From: Catellatospora paridis
GTDB lineage: Bacteria; Actinomycetota; Actinomycetes; Mycobacteriales; Micromonosporaceae
Direction of reading: 5' to 3'
Assembly (NCBI RefSeq): GCF_009720365.1
Contig: NZ_ML769314.1
Location: forward strand, 53,264-117,263
DNA: 64,000 nucleotides
The notes under the pieces were generated by a model. That model was not told where the DNA came from, did not search any database, and saw nothing but the letters and a program-made list of their open reading frames with translations. The position numbers were made by a program, and so were the translations under genes. The stretch's first letter is position 1. Each line of letters starts with the position of its first letter. Shown piece after piece: positions 45,067 through 63,320 of the stretch.

Positions 45067-46062
45067 TCAGGGCAAGGCGGTCCCGGTCCCGGCGCCGAGC
45101 AGGGTGTGGCCCGCCGCGGTCGCCACGTAGAGCACCGCGCGGCCGTGGCGGCTGCGCGCCAGCAGGCCGGCCGCGTGCAACACCTGGAGGTGCTCGGAGA
45201 CCGCACCCGCCGACATGCCCAGCCGCCGGGACAGCTCGCTGGTGGTGGCCGGCTGGCGCAGCATGTCCAGCATCCGCGCCCGGGAGGCGCCGAACAGCGC
45301 GGCCAGCGCCTCGTCGGCGGGCGGCCGACGTTCCCACACCGTCCCTCTGGCCTGGGCGGGGTAGGCGGCGAACGGCGGCGACTCCGGCCGCACAGTCCAC
45401 AGCACGTGGCAGGTCACGAAGATGCTCGGCACCAGGGCCAGCCCCCGCCCGCGCAGGTCCAGGTGGATGTCGAACGGGTCGTCGGAGTCGATGCGGTCGC
45501 CCGCCCAGCGCACCTCGGGGTGCAGGGTGTTGATCAGCCGCCGGACCCCGCCTTCGGCGAGCTCGCGCGAGCGGTACGCGACATCCGCCTCCAGCAGTGC
45601 CCGGATCCTGGTCCAGTACGGTGCCAGCGCCACCCGGTGCCACTCCCGCACGCCGGTGACCAGGTCGGCCAGCAGTTTCTCCGGGTCCGCCAGCCCCGCT
45701 GCCGCCAGTGGGCCCAGCGGCAGCCGCACTGTGGTGGACCGCAGGTCCGCGACGACCACGTCGAGCGGGGTCGCCGCGACGACGGCGAGCTCGGCCTCGA
45801 TGTCGCCGAGCGGGCCCGCGGGTGGCGGGGTGAGGAAGTCCGGGAAGTAGGCGCGCGGCCGGGTCAGCTCGGCCAGCAGCGCGCCACCGGGTGCGGCGGC
45901 GGGCGCGGCGGACAGCTCGCGGGCCTCGCGTCGCCACGGCAGGTGGATCGGGCTGCCGTCGGTGTCCGTCAGCGCGTACCGGCTGCGGACCGTCTCCCAC
46001 AGTGGCGAGATGCAGAAGCGGATGTCCGCGGCGTCGCTGACTCCGAAGAGGATCTGGCTCAA
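45067..46062 (-). CDS. ArsR-type winged-helix regulator with large N-terminal domain (DUF5937-like)
   Basis: A 331-residue regulator. Residues about 1-240 are an effector or dimerisation domain with FCISPLWETVRS near the start, as in DUF5937 proteins. The C-terminal HTH is TTSELSRRLGMSAGAVSEHLQVLHAAGLL (in segments, about 273-302). TTG 46062 is proposed since AAGGA lies 8 bases upstream and the domain starts there; the frame is open for 57 more codons, so the start is uncertain. It is divergent from an alpha/beta hydrolase that may be its target. Confidence 0.7.
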   Translation of the reverse strand: MSQILFGVSDAADIRFCISPLWETVRSRYALTDTDGSPIHLPWRREARELSAAPAAAPGGALLAELTRPRAYFPDFLTPPPAGPLGDIEAELAVVAATPLDVVVADLRSTTVRLPLGPLAAAGLADPEKLLADLVTGVREWHRVALAPYWTRIRALLEADVAYRSRELAEGGVRRLINTLHPEVRWAGDRIDSDDPFDIHLDLRGRGLALVPSIFVTCHVLWTVRPESPPFAAYPAQARGTVWERRPPADEALAALFGASRARMLDMLRQPATTSELSRRLGMSAGAVSEHLQVLHAAGLLARSRHGRAVLYVATAAGHTLLGAGTGTALP

Positions 46063-46186
46063 CGCGCTCGTCCTTTCGGCGTACGCCGAATCGTTGGATG
46101 CACCCCACACCGTACTGGTGGGATCGATCCCGGTGCAGCCGTGTACGGCGTTCTTGACAAGCGAACGGGGGAGAGCGCCGGGCGGC

Positions 46187-46225
46187 CCGTACCGGGGACG
46201 GGTCTGCGACCGGTCCCCGGTACGG
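46187..46225. promoter_or_regulatory. 13-bp inverted repeat between the ArsR-type and hydrolase genes
   Basis: CCGTACCGGGGAC (46187-46199) and its perfect complement (46213-46225) flank a 13-base spacer. It lies in the 218-base divergent region, 55 bases before the hydrolase start, and is a candidate operator for the adjacent regulator. Confidence 0.45.
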
Positions 46226-46280
46226 CCTGCCACGGGGCTGACGTGGTGCCGTGTCGGTGCGTCGGCCTAGCGTGGCGGGT

Positions 46281-47003
46281 ATGACGACATTCGTACTCGT
46301 GCCGGGCATGTGGCTCGGGGCATGGGCCTGGCAGGACGTGGCGTCGCGGCTGGCGGGGGCGGGCCACGATCCGCGGCCGGTGACGCTTTCCGGGGTCGCG
46401 GAGCGGGCCGCCGAGGCCCTGCCGCAGACCGATCTGGACACGCACGTCGCCGACGTCGTCGCGCTGGTCGAGGGCGCGGACCTGCGGGACGTGGTGCTGG
46501 TCGGGCACAGCTACGGCGGCATGGTGGTGTCCGTCGCGGCGGGACCGCTCGCATCGCGGCTGCGCCGGGTGGTGTACGTGGACAGCGGACCGCTGCCCGA
46601 GGGCATGTCGCAGTTCGGCACGAACCCGCCCGAGCAGCAGGAGCGCATCCTCGCCGAGATCGGCGACGGCTTCCTCGCTCCCGTGCCGCCGTTCCGGCCG
46701 GACCCCGACGATTCGTCCCTGGCCGGCCTCGATGCCGACATGCTCGCCATGCTGCGCGAACGTGCCACCCCGCACCCGTTCGCCTCGGCCCGCCAGCCCG
46801 TGCACTACCACCCGGACTTCGCCACGGTGCCGTCCGCGCTGATCAGCTGCATGTTCCCGGCCGCCCAGGTGCACGAGATGATCGCCGCTGGTCACCCCTA
46901 CTTCGCCCTGCTCGCCGGTGCCGACGTCCTCGAACTGCCCACCGGCCACTGGCCCATGCTCAGCCGCCCGACCGACCTGGCCACGCTCCTCAGCACGCTG
47001 TAG
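46281..47003 (+). CDS. Alpha/beta hydrolase
   Basis: A 240-residue esterase-like protein. The nucleophile elbow is GHSYGG with S77, the oxyanion region is LVPGMWLGAWAW near the start, and the catalytic histidine is H223 in PTGHWPM. It resembles small esterases of the salicylate-esterase/EstC group. The ATG has TAGCGT at 46268-46273 (-13 to -8). The divergent ArsR-type gene probably controls it; the prenyl synthase gene follows 134 bases downstream on the same strand. Confidence 0.85.
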   Translation: MTTFVLVPGMWLGAWAWQDVASRLAGAGHDPRPVTLSGVAERAAEALPQTDLDTHVADVVALVEGADLRDVVLVGHSYGGMVVSVAAGPLASRLRRVVYVDSGPLPEGMSQFGTNPPEQQERILAEIGDGFLAPVPPFRPDPDDSSLAGLDADMLAMLRERATPHPFASARQPVHYHPDFATVPSALISCMFPAAQVHEMIAAGHPYFALLAGADVLELPTGHWPMLSRPTDLATLLSTL

Positions 47004-47136
47004 GCCGGGACAGGCACCGCCGCGCCCGTCCGTCGTGTTTGGAAGGTGCTCTCCTTCTGTCCGGGCGAGGGTTGGCATGGGGGTGGGATCATGGGGTAGC
47101 GGGGTCGTCAGAGTCCGCGGGGAGGTGGTCGGCCTC

Positions 47137-49482
47137 ATGAGTGTCGTTGCGGAGTTGCTGGAGCCGTTTCCGTTCCGGCAGGAGGATCTCGAGCACAGCA
47201 GGCTCGAGGAGGGTGTACGGCACACGCTGGTGCACTACGCCCGCTGGCGGGACGGGAACCCGGCGGCGATCGGGTCGCATGTGGAGCAGTACACCGCGCA
47301 GCTCAACGCGATCGCCGGGCGGCACACGCCGGGGGCCGCACTGCTGCGCGGGGTCTACGCGCCGCGGCGGCGGCGGGAGCTGCGCGAGCAGGCGCTGCTG
47401 GAGCTGAACTACTTCGGGGTGTACAACCTCAGCGAGGTGCCCGACCCGGCCGACGTGGCCCGCGGCGAGGTGCTCGCGCGGGCGCACGCCCGGACGGCGC
47501 GCGAGGTGGCCGAGGGCATCGAGCGCGGGCGGGGCGTGGCCGGGGTGGTGGAGTCGCTGGAGCGGCGCTTCCCGGCGCTGCGCGGGGTCGCCGAGACGCG
47601 CTGGCTGGCCGAGCGGCTGGACCGGCTGCACCGCACGCTGCCGGAGACGGTGGTGCAGGCGGGCGCGATGGGCAAGGTGGTCCGCACGCTGGTGGGGGTG
47701 CTGGCCATCGGGGGGTACGACACCCGCGACGCGGGCCGGACCGCGGTGCGCGAACACCTCACCCGGATCCTGCCCGGCGCGTACGCGTACGGGGCCGCGT
47801 ACGCCGTGATCGACGACAGCTTCCAGGACCTGCCCGGCGAGCACATGCTGCCGCGCCAGCGCGACCGGCTGCACCGGCTGATCCTGCGCGGCCTGTCCAC
47901 CGGCGGCGCGATCGATCCCGGCGAGGTGCCCGACCACCCGCTCGCCGAGGAGATGCACGACCTGTACGGCATCGCGCTGCAGGTCTACCCGTTCGGCACG
48001 CACCGGCACCTCTACCACGCGGCCGAGTCGATGTACCTGGCCCAGCACCGCGACGCGGCCCGCCGCCCGGACGAGCTGCGCGACGGCGGGCTGGAAGCGG
48101 CGTACCCGGACATCTTCCTCAAGGCCGGGCTGAGCCGGGTGGTGGCCAACATCCTCGGCCGCCGCCGCCTCGACGACGGCTTCTACGCCCGCTGCCTCAA
48201 CACGATCTTCCTGAGCCAGTTCAAGGACGACCTCGCCGACCGCGACGAGGACCGGCGGGCGGGGCGGATGACCCCGTTCACGCACCCCGGTGACGGCCGC
48301 ACCAACCCGCTGCTGGACCTGTTCGCCTACGACGCGTACGTGGTCGAGCAGGTCTACGGCGGCGACCCGGTCGCCCGCGAGGCGCTGACCGGCGTCGGCG
48401 CGATCAAGCTGGCCACGCACCTGTGCGCCGATCCGCAGGGCACGCTGCGGCTGCTCGACCAGTACCCGGTCACCCCGGAGATCGCCGGGTTCCTGCGTAC
48501 GGCGGCCGGGGTGCCGCGGCGGGTGCTGCCCCAGCTGACCACCGCCGACCTGCGCCTGAAGCGGGAGGCGGCCGCGGTGATGGGCCCCCGCGATCCGAAC
48601 AGCGCCGACGCGCGCACCTTCGTGCTCGACCGGCTGCCGCGCATCAACGAGATCGTGCACAGCTGCCACGCCGAGGTCAACGCGGCCGAGCTGGCCCCGA
48701 TCCTGGCGTACACGATGGACGGTCCGGCCAAGCGGCTGCGGCCCGCGCTGACGCTGATGCTGGCCGAGGGGCTCGGCGTGCGCGGGGACATGCCCGAATC
48801 GCTGCTCGGGGCGATCGAGCTGTTCCACACCGCCAGCCTGATCTTCGACGACCTGCCCGCCCAGGACGACGCCACGCTGCGCCGGGGCCGTCCCGCCGCG
48901 CACACCGTGTTCGACGAGGGCAGCGTGCAGCTCGCCGCGATCTCGATGCTGTCCTCGGGCTTCGGCATGCTGGCGCGGCTCGACCGGCACTATCCGGCGC
49001 ACCGGGTCACCGACGTCGTCGCGTACGTCGGCACGGTGCTCGGTCCGCAGCGGCTCTGCCGCGGGCAGTACCTGGACCTGCGCTACGCCCGCGACGCGTC
49101 GCCGGTCACCGGCGAGGACATCCTGGAGATGTACCGGCTCAAGACGTCCACCATGGTCGAGGCCGCGCTGGTGCCGCTGCTGATGCTGCTGGACCGGCCG
49201 CGGGTCGAGATCGAGCTGGTCACCCGGTATGCCGACCATGCGGGCATCGTGTTCCAGGCCCGCGACGACATCCTCGACGCGACCGCGTCCAGCGAGCAGC
49301 TCGGCAAGGACTCGGGCAACGACGTGGGCAAGGCCAACCTGGTCCGGGTGTACGGGCTGGCGCAGGCGCGGCGGCTCATGGAGCAGCACCGCGACGCCGC
49401 GGTGGACAGCTGCGCCGCGCTGCCCTTCGACACCCGCCTGCTGCAGGGCATCGTCGAGCACTTCGCCGCCCGCGGCCGGTGA
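47137..49482 (+). CDS. Tandem two-domain isoprenyl diphosphate synthase-like protein
   Basis: A 781-residue protein, more than twice the usual 300-370. Residues about 485-781 are a trans-prenyltransferase: AKRLRPAL (531-538), first Asp-rich motif DDLPAQDD (571-578), and second motif FQARDDILD (706-714). Residues about 20-440 show the same order in weaker form: GKVVRTLV (179-186), DDSFQD (226-231) and QFKDDLADRDED (361-372). The DD-to-DD spacing is 138 in the N-terminal half and 139 in the C-terminal half, so both halves look like class I isoprenoid synthase folds. The C-terminal half probably makes GGPP- or FPP-like chains; the N-terminal half may be a second synthase, a cyclase or an inactive partner. 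ATG 47137 has GGGGAGG 11 bases upstream; in-frame GTG 47125 is possible. Confidence 0.8.
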   Translation: MSVVAELLEPFPFRQEDLEHSRLEEGVRHTLVHYARWRDGNPAAIGSHVEQYTAQLNAIAGRHTPGAALLRGVYAPRRRRELREQALLELNYFGVYNLSEVPDPADVARGEVLARAHARTAREVAEGIERGRGVAGVVESLERRFPALRGVAETRWLAERLDRLHRTLPETVVQAGAMGKVVRTLVGVLAIGGYDTRDAGRTAVREHLTRILPGAYAYGAAYAVIDDSFQDLPGEHMLPRQRDRLHRLILRGLSTGGAIDPGEVPDHPLAEEMHDLYGIALQVYPFGTHRHLYHAAESMYLAQHRDAARRPDELRDGGLEAAYPDIFLKAGLSRVVANILGRRRLDDGFYARCLNTIFLSQFKDDLADRDEDRRAGRMTPFTHPGDGRTNPLLDLFAYDAYVVEQVYGGDPVAREALTGVGAIKLATHLCADPQGTLRLLDQYPVTPEIAGFLRTAAGVPRRVLPQLTTADLRLKREAAAVMGPRDPNSADARTFVLDRLPRINEIVHSCHAEVNAAELAPILAYTMDGPAKRLRPALTLMLAEGLGVRGDMPESLLGAIELFHTASLIFDDLPAQDDATLRRGRPAAHTVFDEGSVQLAAISMLSSGFGMLARLDRHYPAHRVTDVVAYVGTVLGPQRLCRGQYLDLRYARDASPVTGEDILEMYRLKTSTMVEAALVPLLMLLDRPRVEIELVTRYADHAGIVFQARDDILDATASSEQLGKDSGNDVGKANLVRVYGLAQARRLMEQHRDAAVDSCAALPFDTRLLQGIVEHFAARGR

Positions 49483-58090: not shown

Positions 58091-58903
58091 CTACTGGACG
58101 ACCTCGAGGTAGTCGACGTTCGGGCCGCCCTCGCGGCTGGCGGCGGTGGCCCGGACGGTGTTCGCGCCCGCGGTCAGGGTGACGGTGACGGTGACCGTGT
58201 TCCAGGCGTCCCAGCTGGGCGTCGGGTCGAAGCGGACACCGCGGTGCACGGTGCCGCCGTTGACGCTGATGTCCATGGTGCGGCTGCAGCAGCCGGCGTT
58301 GGCGAAGCGCAGCCGCAGCGTGGCCGTGCCGGCCTTGCCCGGCACGCTCCACTGCAGGTATCCGCCGGCGGTGTTGTCGAAGTCGATGAAGCCCGAGCCG
58401 CTGTAGCCGGTGTGGTCGTCGGCGGTGCGGGCCTGGGACCGGCTCGCCGACTCGGCCTCGTGGCGTGTGGTCCGCGGCGCGGCTGGCGGCGGCGGGGCGG
58501 CCGGGGACGGCGAGATGGCCGGGGACGGCGTGGCGGCCGGGGACGGCGACGAGCCTTCGGCCCGCGGGGCGGCCGACGCCGACGCGGTCGCCGCGGGCCG
58601 GGCCGCGGGGGTGCGCGGTGCGGGGGTGTGCGCCGCCGGGGCGTCCGGGTTGATCGGCGCGACGACGGGCGCGGCGCTCGGCTGGTCCTCCCACGGCAGC
58701 GCGTCGTTCCAGGTCGCCGGCCGGTGGACGGTGGTGAGGATGAGCAGGATCAGCGCGGCGGTGAACACTGCGGCTGCCACCAGCGGCAGGGCGCGCAGCC
58801 GTTCCAGCAGCGGTACGCGAATCCGCCGCCGGCCCTCGTACCCGAAATCGTCCTCCACCGCCGGATGCCTGCCGTCTCTCGTCTGCCGTCTGCCGTCTGT
58901 CAC
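58091..58903 (-). CDS. Membrane-anchored CBM35-like carbohydrate-binding protein
   Basis: A 270-residue type II membrane protein. A short basic cytoplasmic part precedes one membrane segment (about 38-60), a Pro/Ala/Ser linker (75-145) and a C-terminal CBM6/CBM35-type module beginning HEAESASRSQARTADDHTGYSGSGF (in segments), with GYLQWSVPGKAG and NVDYLEVVQ closing the jelly roll. It should bind cell-wall or environmental glycans. The GTG 58903 start is tentative; GTG 58858 is an alternative. Its stop is one base from the convergent qor stop. Confidence 0.75.
   Translation of the reverse strand: MTDGRRQTRDGRHPAVEDDFGYEGRRRIRVPLLERLRALPLVAAAVFTAALILLILTTVHRPATWNDALPWEDQPSAAPVVAPINPDAPAAHTPAPRTPAARPAATASASAAPRAEGSSPSPAATPSPAISPSPAAPPPPAAPRTTRHEAESASRSQARTADDHTGYSGSGFIDFDNTAGGYLQWSVPGKAGTATLRLRFANAGCCSRTMDISVNGGTVHRGVRFDPTPSWDAWNTVTVTVTLTAGANTVRATAASREGGPNVDYLEVVQ
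58499..58548. repeat. Three 18-bp-spaced repeats in the linker of the CBM35-like gene
   Basis: GGCCGGGGACGGCG occurs at 58499, 58517 and 58535 with exact 18-base spacing. On the coding strand it encodes SPSPA-type linker units. It is probably a slippage-prone linker. Confidence 0.8.
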
Positions 58904-59069
58904 GGTTACGAGCGAGAAACGTAGTGGGCGGGTGCCTGTCGCGCACCGGCCGCTCGGTCAGCAAATCCGGAGCCGACGGTCAACCCGGCCCGCCGTGCGG
59001 CTCTCGGGCCACTCCGTATCGATCGTCGTCGTACGGGAACCGGGGTCCGGTGCGGTGACTCGACCGGGC

Positions 59070-60293
59070 ATGACGACGAGACGTGATGTGCTGGCCCTGC
59101 TCGGCGTGGGCGCGGCAGCGGCGCTGACCGGGTGCCGTGCGGCGGCGCCCGCGGCGGGGACGGGCGTGCCGGACCTGCTGCTGGTGCGGGCCGAGGGCGG
59201 GCTGACCGTGCTGCGGCCGTCCGGGATGGAGCGGATCGGGGCCGGTCTGGCCACCCCGGACGGCGCGACCGTGTACGCGGCCGCCGCGGCGGGCGTGGAC
59301 ACCGAACTGACCGCGATCGAGACCCGGACCGGGCAGCGCACCGCGGGGCCGCGGCTGGCCGGGGCGTGGACGCCGCGGGTCGTCTCCGCGGACGGGCGGC
59401 TGGTGGCGTTGGCCGCGCCCGGCTCCGGCGAGGTCACCCACGTGCCCTCGGGCCGGGCGCGCACCCCGCTGGTGGTCGCGGACACGGCCCGTGAGGTGGC
59501 CCGGCTGGAGCTGCCCGGCAACATCGTGCCGGACGCGTTCTCGACCGGCGGCGAGGGCCTGTTCGTGCTGGACTGGCTGCCCGCCACCGCGCCGGACCGG
59601 TACCGGGTGCGCCAGGTCGACGTGGCCACCGGCCGCAGCTCGGCGCTGCTGACCCGGGTGAAGTCGCCGGTCCCGCCGGGGGCCGAGGAGGAGATGAGCG
59701 GCGAGGGCCGGATGGCCGTGTACGCGCCGAACCGGCAGGTCCTCTACACCCTCTACACGCATCAGCCGGACCACCGGCACACCCGCGACCTGATCGCCGG
59801 TCGCCCCGGCGGCGTGCACGCGTTCGTGCACACGTTGCACCTGGCCGAGCAGTGGGCGTTCTGCGTCGACCTGCCCGCGCCGTTCGGCGAGGGTCCGGGG
59901 GCGGGGCACGCACTGACGATGTCGCCGGAGGGCGGCGAGTTCTACGTGGCCGACGTGACCAGCGGGCGGTTCGCGGTCGTCGGGACCGAGCAGCTCGCCG
60001 TCCGCGAGACCGTCGACGGCCCGAAGGGCGTGGGCGTCGCGTTCGCGGCGGCGACGTTCCGCGAGGTGCTGGTGGCGGTCGGCAGCACGGTGCACGTGCT
60101 GCCGCGCGACGCCGCGCCGGTGTGGCGCAGCTGGGACGCCGGGGGCGTGGTGCGCGGCCTGGGCGTCAGCGCCGACGGCAAGCGGGTGTACACGGCTCTG
60201 CCCGACGCCGTGGCCTGGTTCGACGCCGCGACCGGGCAGCGCCTGGGCACCGTCGCCGTGCCCGGCCTCAGCGCCCTGGACCGGGTCCTGTGA
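59070..60293 (+). CDS. Lipoprotein with beta-propeller-like domain
   Basis: A 407-residue lipoprotein. MTTRRDVLALLGVGAAAALTGC (in part) has a twin-arginine-like RR and lipobox LTGC (cysteine about 22). The mature region shows propeller-like repeats: LLLVRAEGGLTVL, DGATVYAAAAAG, VVSADGRLVALA and LGVSADGKRVYTALPD. No catalytic motif is seen. Its last 26 bases overlap the convergent membrane protein gene. Confidence 0.75.
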   Translation: MTTRRDVLALLGVGAAAALTGCRAAAPAAGTGVPDLLLVRAEGGLTVLRPSGMERIGAGLATPDGATVYAAAAAGVDTELTAIETRTGQRTAGPRLAGAWTPRVVSADGRLVALAAPGSGEVTHVPSGRARTPLVVADTAREVARLELPGNIVPDAFSTGGEGLFVLDWLPATAPDRYRVRQVDVATGRSSALLTRVKSPVPPGAEEEMSGEGRMAVYAPNRQVLYTLYTHQPDHRHTRDLIAGRPGGVHAFVHTLHLAEQWAFCVDLPAPFGEGPGAGHALTMSPEGGEFYVADVTSGRFAVVGTEQLAVRETVDGPKGVGVAFAAATFREVLVAVGSTVHVLPRDAAPVWRSWDAGGVVRGLGVSADGKRVYTALPDAVAWFDAATGQRLGTVAVPGLSALDRVL

Positions 60294-61593
60294 CGGACGG
60301 CGATGCGTCGGTGGGCCGGGCTCCGGCCTGCTGACGCGGCCGCCGGGCCCGGCCGAACGGGGGGATCCGGGCGGCGACCAGGGCCAGCAGCCAGGCCGGG
60401 GCGAGCAGCGCCGTCAGCGCGGCATACCAGGGCAGCCGCCAGGTCCACGACGGGCCGGTGGCGGCGGTGACGTCGCCACCGGTCCACGGCCGCGCCGCCA
60501 GCGACCAGGCCAGGAACGCGTCGCCGACGGGCAGCGCGCCGCCCAGGTAGCGGCGTCGACCGTCCCACTGCACGGCCAGCCCGGCCGCCTCGGCCAGGCC
60601 GGTGAGCGCCGCGGCCGCCGGGGCGTCGCCGTAGACGACCGCGTCGCCGAGGGCGACCGCGCTCGCCGACGTGCTCAGCCCCCACAGCAGGGGCCCGGAG
60701 TCGACGTCGCCCGCGAGGTCGACGCCGCGCGGGTGCTCGCGGATGCCGGGCGCGCCCGGCACGGTCGAGGCGAACTGCGCGCGGAAGGCCGCCCAGTCGC
60801 GGGCGCCGACCGCCGGGTCCACCTCGCGCAGGAAGCGCAGCACCATCACCTGCGAGGTGGCGCGCGCGCCGCTGGTCGGCTGTCCGGTCGCCGGGTCCAC
60901 GGTGTGCGGGAGCAGCCCGGTCGCCGGGTCGCGGCGGGTGTCCGCGGCGGCCAGCCAGTCGCGGACCAGGCCCGCGCGGTCGACACCGGTCAGCGTGCCC
61001 GCCAGCCGCACCGCGGCGATGCCCACGGCGCTGTCACAGGGCCAGGCCTGCCCCGGGTATGCGGTCAGGAACGGCGACCCGGTCGTGTCGAGCTGCCGCC
61101 GGAACGCCGTGGCCAGCGCGTCGGCGTCCGCGGTCAGCCGGGCCCGCTCCGGCGCGTCCGGCCCGTCGAGCGCGACCACGCCGCCTCGCAGCCAGGTGGC
61201 CCAGCCCTGATAGAACACGCCGTACGGCGGTTCGAGCGAGGCGTCGAAGACCGCGCTGCCCTCTGCGGAGTCCACCTGGGACAGCGCCCAGCGCGCCTCG
61301 GCCAGCGCCCGTGCCCGCAACTGCGTGCTGCGCGCGCCGACGTCGAGCCAGGTCAGGCCGTAGAGCGTGTAGCTGAAGAACCATCCCTCGGGGAACAGCT
61401 GCTGCATCCGCGCGGCGCTGCCGCCGTCGAGCGCCTCGCGCTGGAAGGCCAGGCGCGGCAGCGCGTCCGCGACGATCTCCGCGTCGGTGCGCGCCAGCGG
61501 GCTCGCCGCGTGCAGCCGGGACACCTCGATCCCCGCCAGGCCGGTGAGCGCCAGGACGAGCAACACGAGGAACGACCGCACCAGCCTGCGCAT
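60268..61593 (-). CDS. Membrane-anchored protein with alpha/alpha-barrel-like domain
   Basis: A 441-residue protein with an N-terminal membrane segment (about 6-23), a large extracytoplasmic domain and a C-terminal membrane segment (about 385-408) with a basic tail. Stretches such as FFSYTLYGLTWLDVG, PPYGVFYQGWATWL and PFLTAYPGQAWPCDSAVG suggest a helical toroid like that of linalool dehydratase-isomerase or glycoside hydrolases. The resemblance is impressionistic. The ATG has TACGAT at 61600-61605 (-12 to -7). Confidence 0.6.
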   Translation of the reverse strand: MRRLVRSFLVLLVLALTGLAGIEVSRLHAASPLARTDAEIVADALPRLAFQREALDGGSAARMQQLFPEGWFFSYTLYGLTWLDVGARSTQLRARALAEARWALSQVDSAEGSAVFDASLEPPYGVFYQGWATWLRGGVVALDGPDAPERARLTADADALATAFRRQLDTTGSPFLTAYPGQAWPCDSAVGIAAVRLAGTLTGVDRAGLVRDWLAAADTRRDPATGLLPHTVDPATGQPTSGARATSQVMVLRFLREVDPAVGARDWAAFRAQFASTVPGAPGIREHPRGVDLAGDVDSGPLLWGLSTSASAVALGDAVVYGDAPAAAALTGLAEAAGLAVQWDGRRRYLGGALPVGDAFLAWSLAARPWTGGDVTAATGPSWTWRLPWYAALTALLAPAWLLALVAARIPPFGRARRPRQQAGARPTDASPSVTGPGPGR

Positions 61594-61652
61594 CGGGTGA
61601 TCGTAGACGGGCGTGCATGCGTAGCGTCGTCCCGCGGGCCTACTATCAGTCG

Positions 61653-63320
61653 GTGACCCAGGGTGTGGAACCAGTGGACCTGTTGCGGCTCATCGGATCC
61701 GCGGCGCACGACTACGACAGCATGGACGGGCTGGAGCAGGTGCTGCTGCCCGCCGACGGCCTGCATCCGCTGGCCGCGCAGCTGGTCGCGCCGATCCTGG
61801 CGTTCGCCGCGGACCCCAAGACCCGCCTGCCCGACCAGCTGCTGATGCTGGTCCGCGAGCTGGCGGCGCACCCCGACGGGGAGCCGGTGCGCCAGCAGTT
61901 GCGCGCCTTCACCGTCACCCTGCGTAGCCTGTCCGATCTCGACGACCACAGCGTCGTCGAGGAGTCCACCGCCCTGCTCGGCTGGTGCGGCCCCGATCCA
62001 CAGCTGTCGGCGGTGCTGCTGGCCCGCGCCCGGGACTACGCCGACGACTATCGCCGGGTCACCCCGCTGGTGACCGCGGCGCAGCTCGACCCGGCCGCCG
62101 CGGCGGGCTGGCTGCCGGAGTTCCTCGATGCGTCGCGGTCGTCCACGGTCCGGGTCGCGGCGGTGCTGGCGATGCGCGAGTCCGGACTGGCGCCCACCGC
62201 GCAGGCCGCCGCGGCGCTGGCCGCGGGCTGGTCCGCCGATCCCGACGCGCTGCGCTGGACCACCCGCCGCGGCAGGCTGGCCGACCTGGTCGAGTACGCG
62301 GCGGGCGGCGACGCGGGGCGCGACGCCGAGCTGCTCACCGCGATCGCGCGCGACGGCCAGGCGCAGGCGCGCCGCGACGTCGCGCAGACCCTGGCCGACC
62401 GCGCCGCCGGGCAGCGCCTGCCGGTGGAGCTGCAGGCCCTGCTCTGCTCGTTCCTGGACGACCCGGAGGAGCGGGTGCGCCGCTGCGCGTACCGGGCCGT
62501 GGTCGCCGACGACGCGCTGACCCGCCGCCAGGCCGACTGGCTGGCTGACGCGGTGGCGCGCGGGGCCCGCATGCGCCGCTCGGCGCTGGACGCGCTGATC
62601 CGGGTCGGTGACCCGCGCTGGCGTGTGCACGCCGAGGATGCGCTGCGCCAGGGCTGGACGCCGCCGCGACTGCCCGGCGCGCTGGCCGAGCTCCCGCCGC
62701 CGGACGAGTCCCTGCGGGGGGCGGTGCTGGGCCGGGTGGTCGCGCTGGCGACCACGATCGACGTGAACCGCTCGCCCAAGGCCACCGCCAAGGAGCAGCG
62801 CGAACTCGTGGGACTGCTGCGGGTGCTGGGCGCCGCCGCCGACTCGGCGGTGGTCGGCACGCTGGCCCGGCACCTGGCCCAGATGACCTGGCCTGCCCGG
62901 CTGTGGGTGGCCGAGTTCCTGGCCGAGGCGGGCCGCGGCGACCCCGAGGTGCTCGACGCGATCGGCGCGATGGCCAACGGTGAGGTCATCTACCTGCGGC
63001 TGCTGTGGCTGGCCGGGGGCGACGACGCGCCGCTGCGGGCCGCGATCGCGGTGGCCCCGCGCCGGGACGTGCTGGCCGCGGTCGCCGCGGCCGAGGTGTT
63101 CGGCGACGCCGACCCCGACGTGGCGGCCCGCCTGCGCGAGATCCGGGACAGCGACGCCGACGTCAAGGACCGGTTCGCGGCCGCGGGCGCGCTGTGGGAG
63201 CTGACCGGCGACCCGGCGGAGGCCGTGGCGACGGTCCGGGAGGCGCTGGACGCGCCGTGGCTGCGCACCCGGCAGCGCGCTCGGGAGCTGGCCGACCAGC
63301 TCGGACTTGAGCACGCCTGA
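61653..63320 (+). CDS. HEAT-repeat-like helical protein
   Basis: A 555-residue soluble, leucine/alanine-rich protein of repeated helix pairs. Examples are RDVAQTLADRAAG, DDPEERVRRCAYRAVVADD, RRSALDALIRVGDPRWR and DPDVAARLREIRDS. This is the HEAT/armadillo style used for protein binding. No enzyme motif is visible. GTG 61653 has TACTAT at 61641-61646 (-12 to -7); an upstream ATG at 61617 would include the promoter box. It is divergent from the membrane-anchored helical protein. Confidence 0.7.
   Translation: MTQGVEPVDLLRLIGSAAHDYDSMDGLEQVLLPADGLHPLAAQLVAPILAFAADPKTRLPDQLLMLVRELAAHPDGEPVRQQLRAFTVTLRSLSDLDDHSVVEESTALLGWCGPDPQLSAVLLARARDYADDYRRVTPLVTAAQLDPAAAAGWLPEFLDASRSSTVRVAAVLAMRESGLAPTAQAAAALAAGWSADPDALRWTTRRGRLADLVEYAAGGDAGRDAELLTAIARDGQAQARRDVAQTLADRAAGQRLPVELQALLCSFLDDPEERVRRCAYRAVVADDALTRRQADWLADAVARGARMRRSALDALIRVGDPRWRVHAEDALRQGWTPPRLPGALAELPPPDESLRGAVLGRVVALATTIDVNRSPKATAKEQRELVGLLRVLGAAADSAVVGTLARHLAQMTWPARLWVAEFLAEAGRGDPEVLDAIGAMANGEVIYLRLLWLAGGDDAPLRAAIAVAPRRDVLAAVAAAEVFGDADPDVAARLREIRDSDADVKDRFAAAGALWELTGDPAEAVATVREALDAPWLRTRQRARELADQLGLEHA

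Follow-up and report, generated by a model that had tools for sequence, protein, structure and literature searches.

Chimeric enzymes with an N-terminal terpene synthase and a C-terminal prenyltransferase are known from fungi and, in the accessible portion of a 2021 account, were termed unique to them (PMC8307374). In insects, substitution of residues that bind isopentenyl diphosphate (IPP) has been associated with prenyltransferases turned terpene synthases, and in the sandfly sobralene synthase 12 of 15 IPP-contact residues are substituted and three kept (accessible portion of PMC10962984). A Heliconius enzyme annotated as a geranylgeranyl diphosphate (GGPP) synthase makes ocimene from geranyl diphosphate (GPP) (PMC7815096, likewise in part), and terpene synthases of the isoprenyl diphosphate synthase (IDS) type also occur in fungi (PMC7484799, in part). 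Here we describe a gene of the actinobacterium Catellatospora paridis, at positions 47137..49482 (plus strand) of a window of 64,000 nucleotides (contig NZ_ML769314.1, positions 53,264 to 117,263), whose product joins a prenyltransferase to an N-terminal domain with the landmarks of the same class of enzymes. With the arguments evenly balanced, we favor the reading that this is a self-contained prenyltransferase–terpene synthase (PTTS) with the layout of the fungal chimeras, in which the N domain would be of the prenyltransferase type.

As in the fungal PTTS enzymes, such as the fusicoccadiene synthase PaFS and the ophiobolin synthase AcOS, a single polypeptide (∼700 amino acids there, 781 here) holds an N-terminal class I domain, recognized here by landmarks, and a C-terminal prenyltransferase (PMC8307374, in the portion cited above). 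Unlike these enzymes, the present protein is bacterial, and its N domain has prenyltransferase landmarks and lacks the NSE/DTE motif, the sensor Arg, the RY pair, and any Pfam terpene synthase match. A preliminary description of the window had likened the protein to the fungal chimeras, "assembled differently"; the order of the domains is in fact identical as far as that account goes (PMC8307374), and it is the type of N domain that differs.

The gene was defined by the list of open reading frames (ORFs), its translation, and its coding pattern. The ORF encodes 781 amino acids plus a stop, with two domains in one frame, and third-position GC was 0.95 for this frame, measured over the longer plus-strand frame 46918-49482. 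An 813-amino acid antisense ORF that overlaps the gene failed the coding-pattern filter, and a GGGAGGTGG stretch lies directly before the ATG at 47137. The two-domain protein noticed in the preliminary description, with a prenyltransferase in its C-terminal ∼300 residues, is confirmed. Residues 489-781 (48601..49479, plus strand) were assigned to the trans-isoprenyl diphosphate synthases by Pfam, NCBIfam, and conserved residues. PF00348 matched residues 519-742 (E 7e-38, 130.7 bits versus a cut-off of 27) and was the sole Pfam match in the protein; NCBIfam matches all fell within residues 496-779, below their own cut-offs, the best being farnesyl diphosphate (FPP) synthase and CrtE-type GGPP synthase.

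Conservation in the C half was assessed over 14 sequences, window included and the degenerate homologue L030 left out. Lys-532, Arg-535, His-564, Asp-571, Asp-572, Asp-577, Arg-582, Arg-583, Gln-644, Asp-647, Lys-669, Asp-710, Asp-711, Asp-714, and Lys-724 were invariant, positions that bind the allylic substrate, IPP, or magnesium in FPP and GGPP synthases. Variation was seen at Thr-670 (Ser in two), Lys-732 (Arg in one), Phe-570 (Leu in three), and Ser-718. Both Asp motifs, the IPP-site Lys, Arg, His, and Arg pair (RR), and GQxxDL are present, as is the KT motif (KS in two sequences); the motif given earlier as GKRLRPAL reads AKRLRPAL in the window. On these residues the C half is a trans-prenyltransferase whose predicted metal- and substrate-binding residues are intact. 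Small residues five and four places ahead of the first Asp motif go with a longer product, and in all 14 sequences these positions held Ala (Ser in one) and Ser, respectively; by this rule the C half is suggested to make a product of C20 (GGPP) or longer.

The core of the N domain (residues ∼150-475; 47584..48561, plus strand) carries prenyltransferase-type landmarks. In a set of 15 sequences (window and the N piece of locus L035 included, near-duplicates and L030 left out), Lys-180, Arg-183, Gly-219, Asp-226, Asp-227, Asp-231, Gln-303, Asp-306, Lys-329, Arg-334, Arg-342, Arg-343, Gln-361, Asp-364, Asp-365, Asp-368, Asp-372, and Arg-377 were invariant, and the landmarks follow the order seen in prenyltransferases, i.e. 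GKxxR, DDxxxD, QxxD, K, and DDxxDxxxD. On the plus strand, GKVVRT (residues 179-184; 47671..47688) contains Lys-180 and Arg-183, and the first Asp motif, DDSFQD (residues 226-231; 47812..47829), contains Asp-226, Asp-227, and Asp-231. Between them lies Gly-219 (47791..47793), aligned with the IPP-site His-564 of the C half. QHRD (residues 303-306; 48043..48054) is the putative counterpart of the prenyltransferase GQxxDL, as judged by conservation, the spacing score described below, and three of four alignments of the two halves. Lys-329 (48121..48123) may correspond to the lysine of the KT motif, an assignment made by the spacing score and not by the aligner. The second Asp motif and its basic residue, QFKDDLADRDEDRRAGR (residues 361-377; 48217..48267), contain Asp-364, Asp-365, Asp-368, Asp-372, and Arg-377; the Asp residues at i, i+4, and i+8 in this cluster are spaced like the NSE triad of terpene synthases. 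The repeat of landmarks reported in the preliminary description was borne out by GKVVRT, DDSFQD, and QFKDDLADRDED (residues 361-372) in the N half, as were its spacings between Asp motifs, 138 residues from Asp-226 to Asp-364 and 139 from Asp-571 to Asp-710. The spacing of 138 falls within the range of 125-155 found in 26 prenyltransferases from related genomes.

A landmark-and-spacing score (GKxxR, DD..D, QxxD, K, and DDxxD) was used to quantify this likeness. The N half scored 12 of 12 points, the C half and 27 prenyltransferases 11, and phytoene synthases and terpene synthases two each; none of 5000 shuffles reached 12 points at block sizes of 1, 4, or 8 columns, the maximum being 11 (blocks of 8). 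Among 118 neighborhood ORFs of more than 250 amino acids, the best outside the fusion or its pieces scored 6. This result is partly post hoc, and the spacing windows were widened after the N half had been seen, to hold two of its spacings: the Lys-to-DD distance is 46 before the first Asp motif (39-42 in the prenyltransferase set) and 35 before the second (41 in the C half). In an earlier version of the test, built on median spacings of the prenyltransferase set, the real prenyltransferase half scored 5 points and the N half 6, a score reached by 499 of 5000 shuffles in blocks of 8, 56 in blocks of 4, and none by single columns. Because the windows were widened after that version, we treat the score as supporting evidence and not as proof, and the likeness of the N half to class I enzymes is suggested by its landmarks.

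Family libraries did not recognize the N half. Residues 1-480 gave no Pfam or NCBIfam match at E values up to 1, the outcome of the hidden Markov model search of this half alone for which the preliminary description had called. When 12 family members were scanned singly against Pfam, only one weak TPR match (E 0.22) was seen, and PF00348 matched the N half neither in the window protein nor in any of the 12. Searches of PDB sequences with a single sequence and with a profile returned one match each, to other kinds of protein (E 1.9 and 0.12). Such silence, together with the weak profile–profile scores given below, is what would be expected if the N half were not a class I domain and its motifs coincidental, a reading that we hold to be very improbable in view of the landmark test and of the low power of the profile–profile comparison.

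The N half has neither the IPP-site His nor a conserved Arg pair following its first Asp motif; Gly-219 stands in place of His in all 15 sequences, and residue 240 is mixed. The loss of this His, the retention of no more than a single Arg from the RR pair, and the persistence of the Asp ligands suggest an N half that ionizes a prenyl diphosphate rather than one that extends a chain, and because of the altered IPP site, the kept Asp clusters, and the insect parallels, a terpene synthase role is preferred for it. We infer the fold of the N half, its catalysis, the hand-over of substrate, the chain length, and the product along the following lines. The C half would condense IPP with an allylic starter to yield a prenyl diphosphate. 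The N half, as a diverged class I domain of the prenyltransferase type, would hold magnesium ions by its two Asp clusters and ionize the diphosphate made by the C half; with its altered IPP site it would then release or cyclize the cation, giving a terpene hydrocarbon or alcohol. The preliminary description had suggested that the N half may be active, and conservation of its Asp motifs across genera makes an active N half likely. Of the two roles offered there, a second chain-length synthase or a cyclase fed by its partner, we likewise prefer the cyclase, with landmarks that favor a domain of the prenyltransferase type.

Several observations weigh against a prenyltransferase-type terpene synthase in the N half. 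When the N and C halves were aligned alone by MAFFT, Lys-180/Lys-532, Arg-183/Arg-535, Gly-219/His-564, Asp-226/Asp-571, His-246/His-589, and Asp-364/Asp-710 were in register in four of four modes and Gln-303/Gln-644 in three; the first Asp motif was broken by a gap in all four, and Lys-329 lay opposite Glu-675, not Lys-669. After 27 independent prenyltransferases were added, only GKxxR and the second Asp motif remained in register. By hhalign, the N half scored 29.1 against prenyltransferases (60 shuffles, maximum 21.7), a weak result with a probability of 8.4% that covered the second Asp motif only, and forced global alignments scored at most 7.1. The signal was unspecific, in that canonical terpene synthases scored 23.5, above all 60 shuffles (maximum 23.0), and the C half scored 23.2, narrowly above all 60 shuffles, with a probability of 1.5%. 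Controls with accepted superfamily pairs gave 0.2-0.5% (terpene synthase versus prenyltransferase) and 2.0-20.7% (phytoene synthase versus prenyltransferase), and because these pairs also score weakly, the set-up is underpowered. The sensor Arg and the RY pair of canonical terpene synthases are absent, with no Arg conserved at residues 318-320 and no RY in 440-461; as a yardstick, 53 of 53 terpene synthase fragments, which include repeats and are largely halves of tandem geosmin-type synthases, had Arg at −45 and −46, and 52 had RY at +96. No biosynthetic neighbor conserved between genera was seen among the loci scanned, for which reason the gene most likely works alone.

To these observations must be added GKxxR, which is partly an IPP-site feature; its retention calls for caution. 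Arg-242 (Arg in 14 of 15 sequences, Lys in one) pairs with Arg-583 in three alignments and with Arg-585 in one, and one Arg of the RR site may be kept in this residue. Both features fit a pure cyclase less well and would suit a second chain-elongating prenyltransferase, one half making a short allylic diphosphate and the other extending it to an unusual chain length, as would the QxxD and DDxxD landmarks and the DD-to-DD spacing. We regard this alternative as unlikely, given the Gly at the IPP-site His position throughout, the lack of a conserved Arg pair after the first Asp motif, and the failure of PF00348 to recognize the domain.

The N half was also compared with other kinds of prenyl diphosphate enzymes. 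Residues 368-377 read DxxxDxxxGR, which resembles the phytoene synthase-type DxxEDxxxGR, and the first motif contains DxxxD, so that the N half could be imagined to join two prenyl diphosphates head to head or irregularly, in the manner of squalene and phytoene synthases. The phytoene synthase-type sequences used for comparison had been selected by a pattern that contains D..ED. Two of 60 shuffles reached the real hhalign score against them, the landmark test gave this set two points versus 12 for the N half, and PF00494 matched none of the 12 members scanned. With the Pfam, landmark, and hhalign results not in its favor despite the DxxxD-type motifs, PF00494 was set aside as the family of the N half, and we consider this activity improbable. 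A canonical class I terpene synthase (PF19086) was rejected for want of a family match, the triad, the sensor Arg, and the RY pair, the N half having DDxxDxxxD in place of NDxxSxxxE. YtpB/DUF2600 (PF10776) had no match in the 12 members and occurred in none of 198 genomes of a phylum sample, own genome included. A UbiA-type membrane synthase was likewise discarded, as no 19-residue hydropathy window in residues 1-480 exceeded 1.6 (maximum 1.40).

Selection was then estimated from the ratio of nonsynonymous to synonymous substitution rates (dN/dS). In comparisons with five close relatives (L008-L012), the N core had a dN/dS of 0.15-0.32, residues 1-150 one of 0.21-0.36, and the C half one of 0.03-0.07; against the more distant L013 and L015 the ratio was 0.46-0.74, values that are hard to read in the presence of biased codon usage. 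Both halves are under purifying selection. Distances of the N and C halves were correlated (Mantel r 0.92 over 14 sequences, rising to 0.94 when L030 was added; reached by none of 2000 permutations in each case), a co-divergence consistent with one ancient fusion. The N-terminal extension (residues ∼1-149; 47137..47583, plus strand) belongs to no family, has conserved PFxF..DL and YF.VYNL.E.P stretches, and diverged faster than the N core in seven of seven comparisons.

A fused homologue from a class-level genome (L030:688-2754) had lost the catalytic motifs in both halves, and copies of this sister family (L137-L140) were found in four of 40 genomes of the same actinobacterial genus. Both Asp motifs of the C half are lost in L137-L140. 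In the N half, GKxxR is without its GK, and the first Asp motif, QxxD, Lys-329, and the leading Asp of the second cluster are gone; Asp-365 and Asp-372 are retained, and Asp-368 in two of the four. The copies have deletions in common, open frames with third-position GC of 0.93-0.98, a common gene neighborhood, and dN/dS of 0.34-0.64, and the sister family is likely a double pseudoenzyme, judging by its residues. Because the damage in L137-L140 hits both halves together, it is suggested that the two active sites work as a pair. The survival of this family as an ORF after loss of most catalytic motifs, and the faster evolution of the N half than of the C half against the five close relatives, would also fit an N half that has no catalysis of its own and tunes the C half as a regulatory or scaffold domain, like the small subunits of heteromeric synthases. 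We doubt this strongly, since all seven candidate Asp ligands are invariant in the 15 sequences and since their partial loss from the N half of the sister family went together with loss of the Asp motifs of the C half.

Taken further, and at a tentative level that falls short of even confidence, our reading is that bacteria invented a cyclase–prenyltransferase chimera independently of fungi, by way of a duplicated or recruited prenyltransferase-type domain that would have turned terpene synthase; the N domain would then be a new family of class I terpene synthases, matched by none of the family models searched, and one lineage would have kept the protein after key residues of both sites were lost.

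Besides Catellatospora, several other genera of actinobacteria have the fusion. Within the genus, nine of 11 genomes, counting the own genome, contained the N half; within the family, 16 of 354 did (six of 44 genera), one of these matches being cut by the end of a contig. At the order level, the N profile hit two of 397 genomes, namely the own genome and an unrelated frame (L027; 21.8 bits, E 2.1e-4); at the class level it hit four of 394 including the own genome, and in the phylum sample one of 396, again the own genome; these samples overlap. A pattern scan of named-species genomes gave 16 loci, in Catellatospora, Dactylosporangium, Catelliglobosispora, Allorhizocola, Parafrankia, Nonomuraea antri, a Hamadaea bin, and other metagenome-assembled genomes (MAGs). 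The closest named relatives, with identity of at most 94%, place the window in Catellatospora, a genus of the family Micromonosporaceae. Of 28 loci examined, 27 encode both halves in a single open frame; nine of the 28 are apparently second copies of a sequence fetched from another collection. In the remaining locus, L035 from a MAG, the two halves are separated by an in-frame stop (L035:9330-9332), either real or an assembly error. A free-standing N domain was not found in the genome searches made, and of 313 plasmid records with a match none covered 80% of the query, those among the matches listed all lying within residues 445-779. In two related copies, L028 (1501-4050) and L042 (8001-10487), one of them from Parafrankia, the linker between the halves has grown into a Gln/Pro/Thr/Ser/Gly-rich repeat.

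Among known enzymes, the bacterial FPP and GGPP synthases of PF00348 include the C half as a member and have the same order of landmarks as the N half, which differs from them in lying outside PF00348, in the change of the IPP-site His to Gly, and in the lack of a conserved Arg pair. The genome also encodes a 769-amino acid frame with two PF19086 matches, presumably a geosmin synthase, a kind of protein of ∼750 amino acids with tandem domains. Geosmin synthase is likewise bacterial with two class I domains in tandem, both of which are canonical terpene synthases, and it has no prenyltransferase half. Tandem class I domains are thus already known in bacteria, and what sets the present protein apart is an N domain family unrecognized by the libraries used. 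The IDS-type terpene synthases of insects and fungi share with our proposal for the N half the descent of a class I terpene synthase from a prenyltransferase, and differ in being eukaryotic and still annotated as prenyltransferase-like, whereas the N half is fused to a prenyltransferase and lies outside PF00348.

Bacterial class I/class II diterpene didomain enzymes are bifunctional terpene enzymes too, which, in the accessible portion of PMC11469919, pair a class I with a class II cyclase and have no prenyltransferase. A candidate bacterial counterpart (PMC11574762) proved, from the text accessible, to be a reductase–cyclase didomain, and PMC10509563, in its accessible part, mentions bifunctional enzymes among fungal synthases only. 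PMC13143122 deals with enzymes of termites. The literature searched, which reached few subscription papers and no bioRxiv preprints, yielded no recognized bacterial chimera or bacterial IDS-type terpene synthase, in agreement with the earlier statement that no characterized bacterial enzyme is known to have this layout. Prenyltransferase–cyclase chimeras have yielded many new carbon skeletons, and a bacterial chimera that needs no gene cluster could escape mining that depends on models of terpene synthase families, given that the N half had no match in Pfam or NCBIfam. Whether bacterial terpene synthases arise from prenyltransferases, as reported for insects, would become testable, because both halves sit in one protein and differ in specific features (the IPP-site His and the Arg pair).

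The gene neighborhood was examined with a crude gene caller that overlooked the fusion gene of L036 and that of L041, both intact on inspection. The preliminary description had proposed the nearby α/β-hydrolase and flavin adenine dinucleotide (FAD) monooxygenase as accessory enzymes; they were found in two and five of 17 loci, respectively (window included), all of them in Catellatospora, and neither proposal was upheld. A dihydrouridine synthase gene and a nearby 224-amino acid gene are common to the window and L046, the Hamadaea bin; save for these two, neighbors differ between genera, and an accessory gene cluster was rejected. When 20 nearby genes were scanned in ten loci (Catellatospora tritici and nine others, L041 left out), four had no Pfam match, and the remainder were mixed (polymerase, cellulase, citrate synthase, chemotaxis receptors, kinases, methionine synthase, integrase, etc.).

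Directly upstream of the fusion in L046, on the same strand, lies a berberine-bridge-type FAD oxidase (L046:6509-7933, plus strand), a possible partner in that bin. In the window, an ArsR-type regulator with DUF5937 (45067-46233, minus strand) lies upstream of the fusion on the other strand, and the same place is taken by a minus-strand ORF of 307 amino acids in L038 and by an ORF of 309 amino acids in L014; a regulatory role for this protein is possible. Three ORFs of 627, 441, and 567 amino acids at positions 58410-63320 have coding-like third-position GC and no Pfam family. The host genome (8.97 Mb) has six PF00348 matches, the fusion gene counted. Elsewhere in it, at L002, a prenyltransferase adjoins a cyclic-nucleotide-binding-like protein, a pair that to us resembles a family 2 encapsulin with prenyltransferase cargo.

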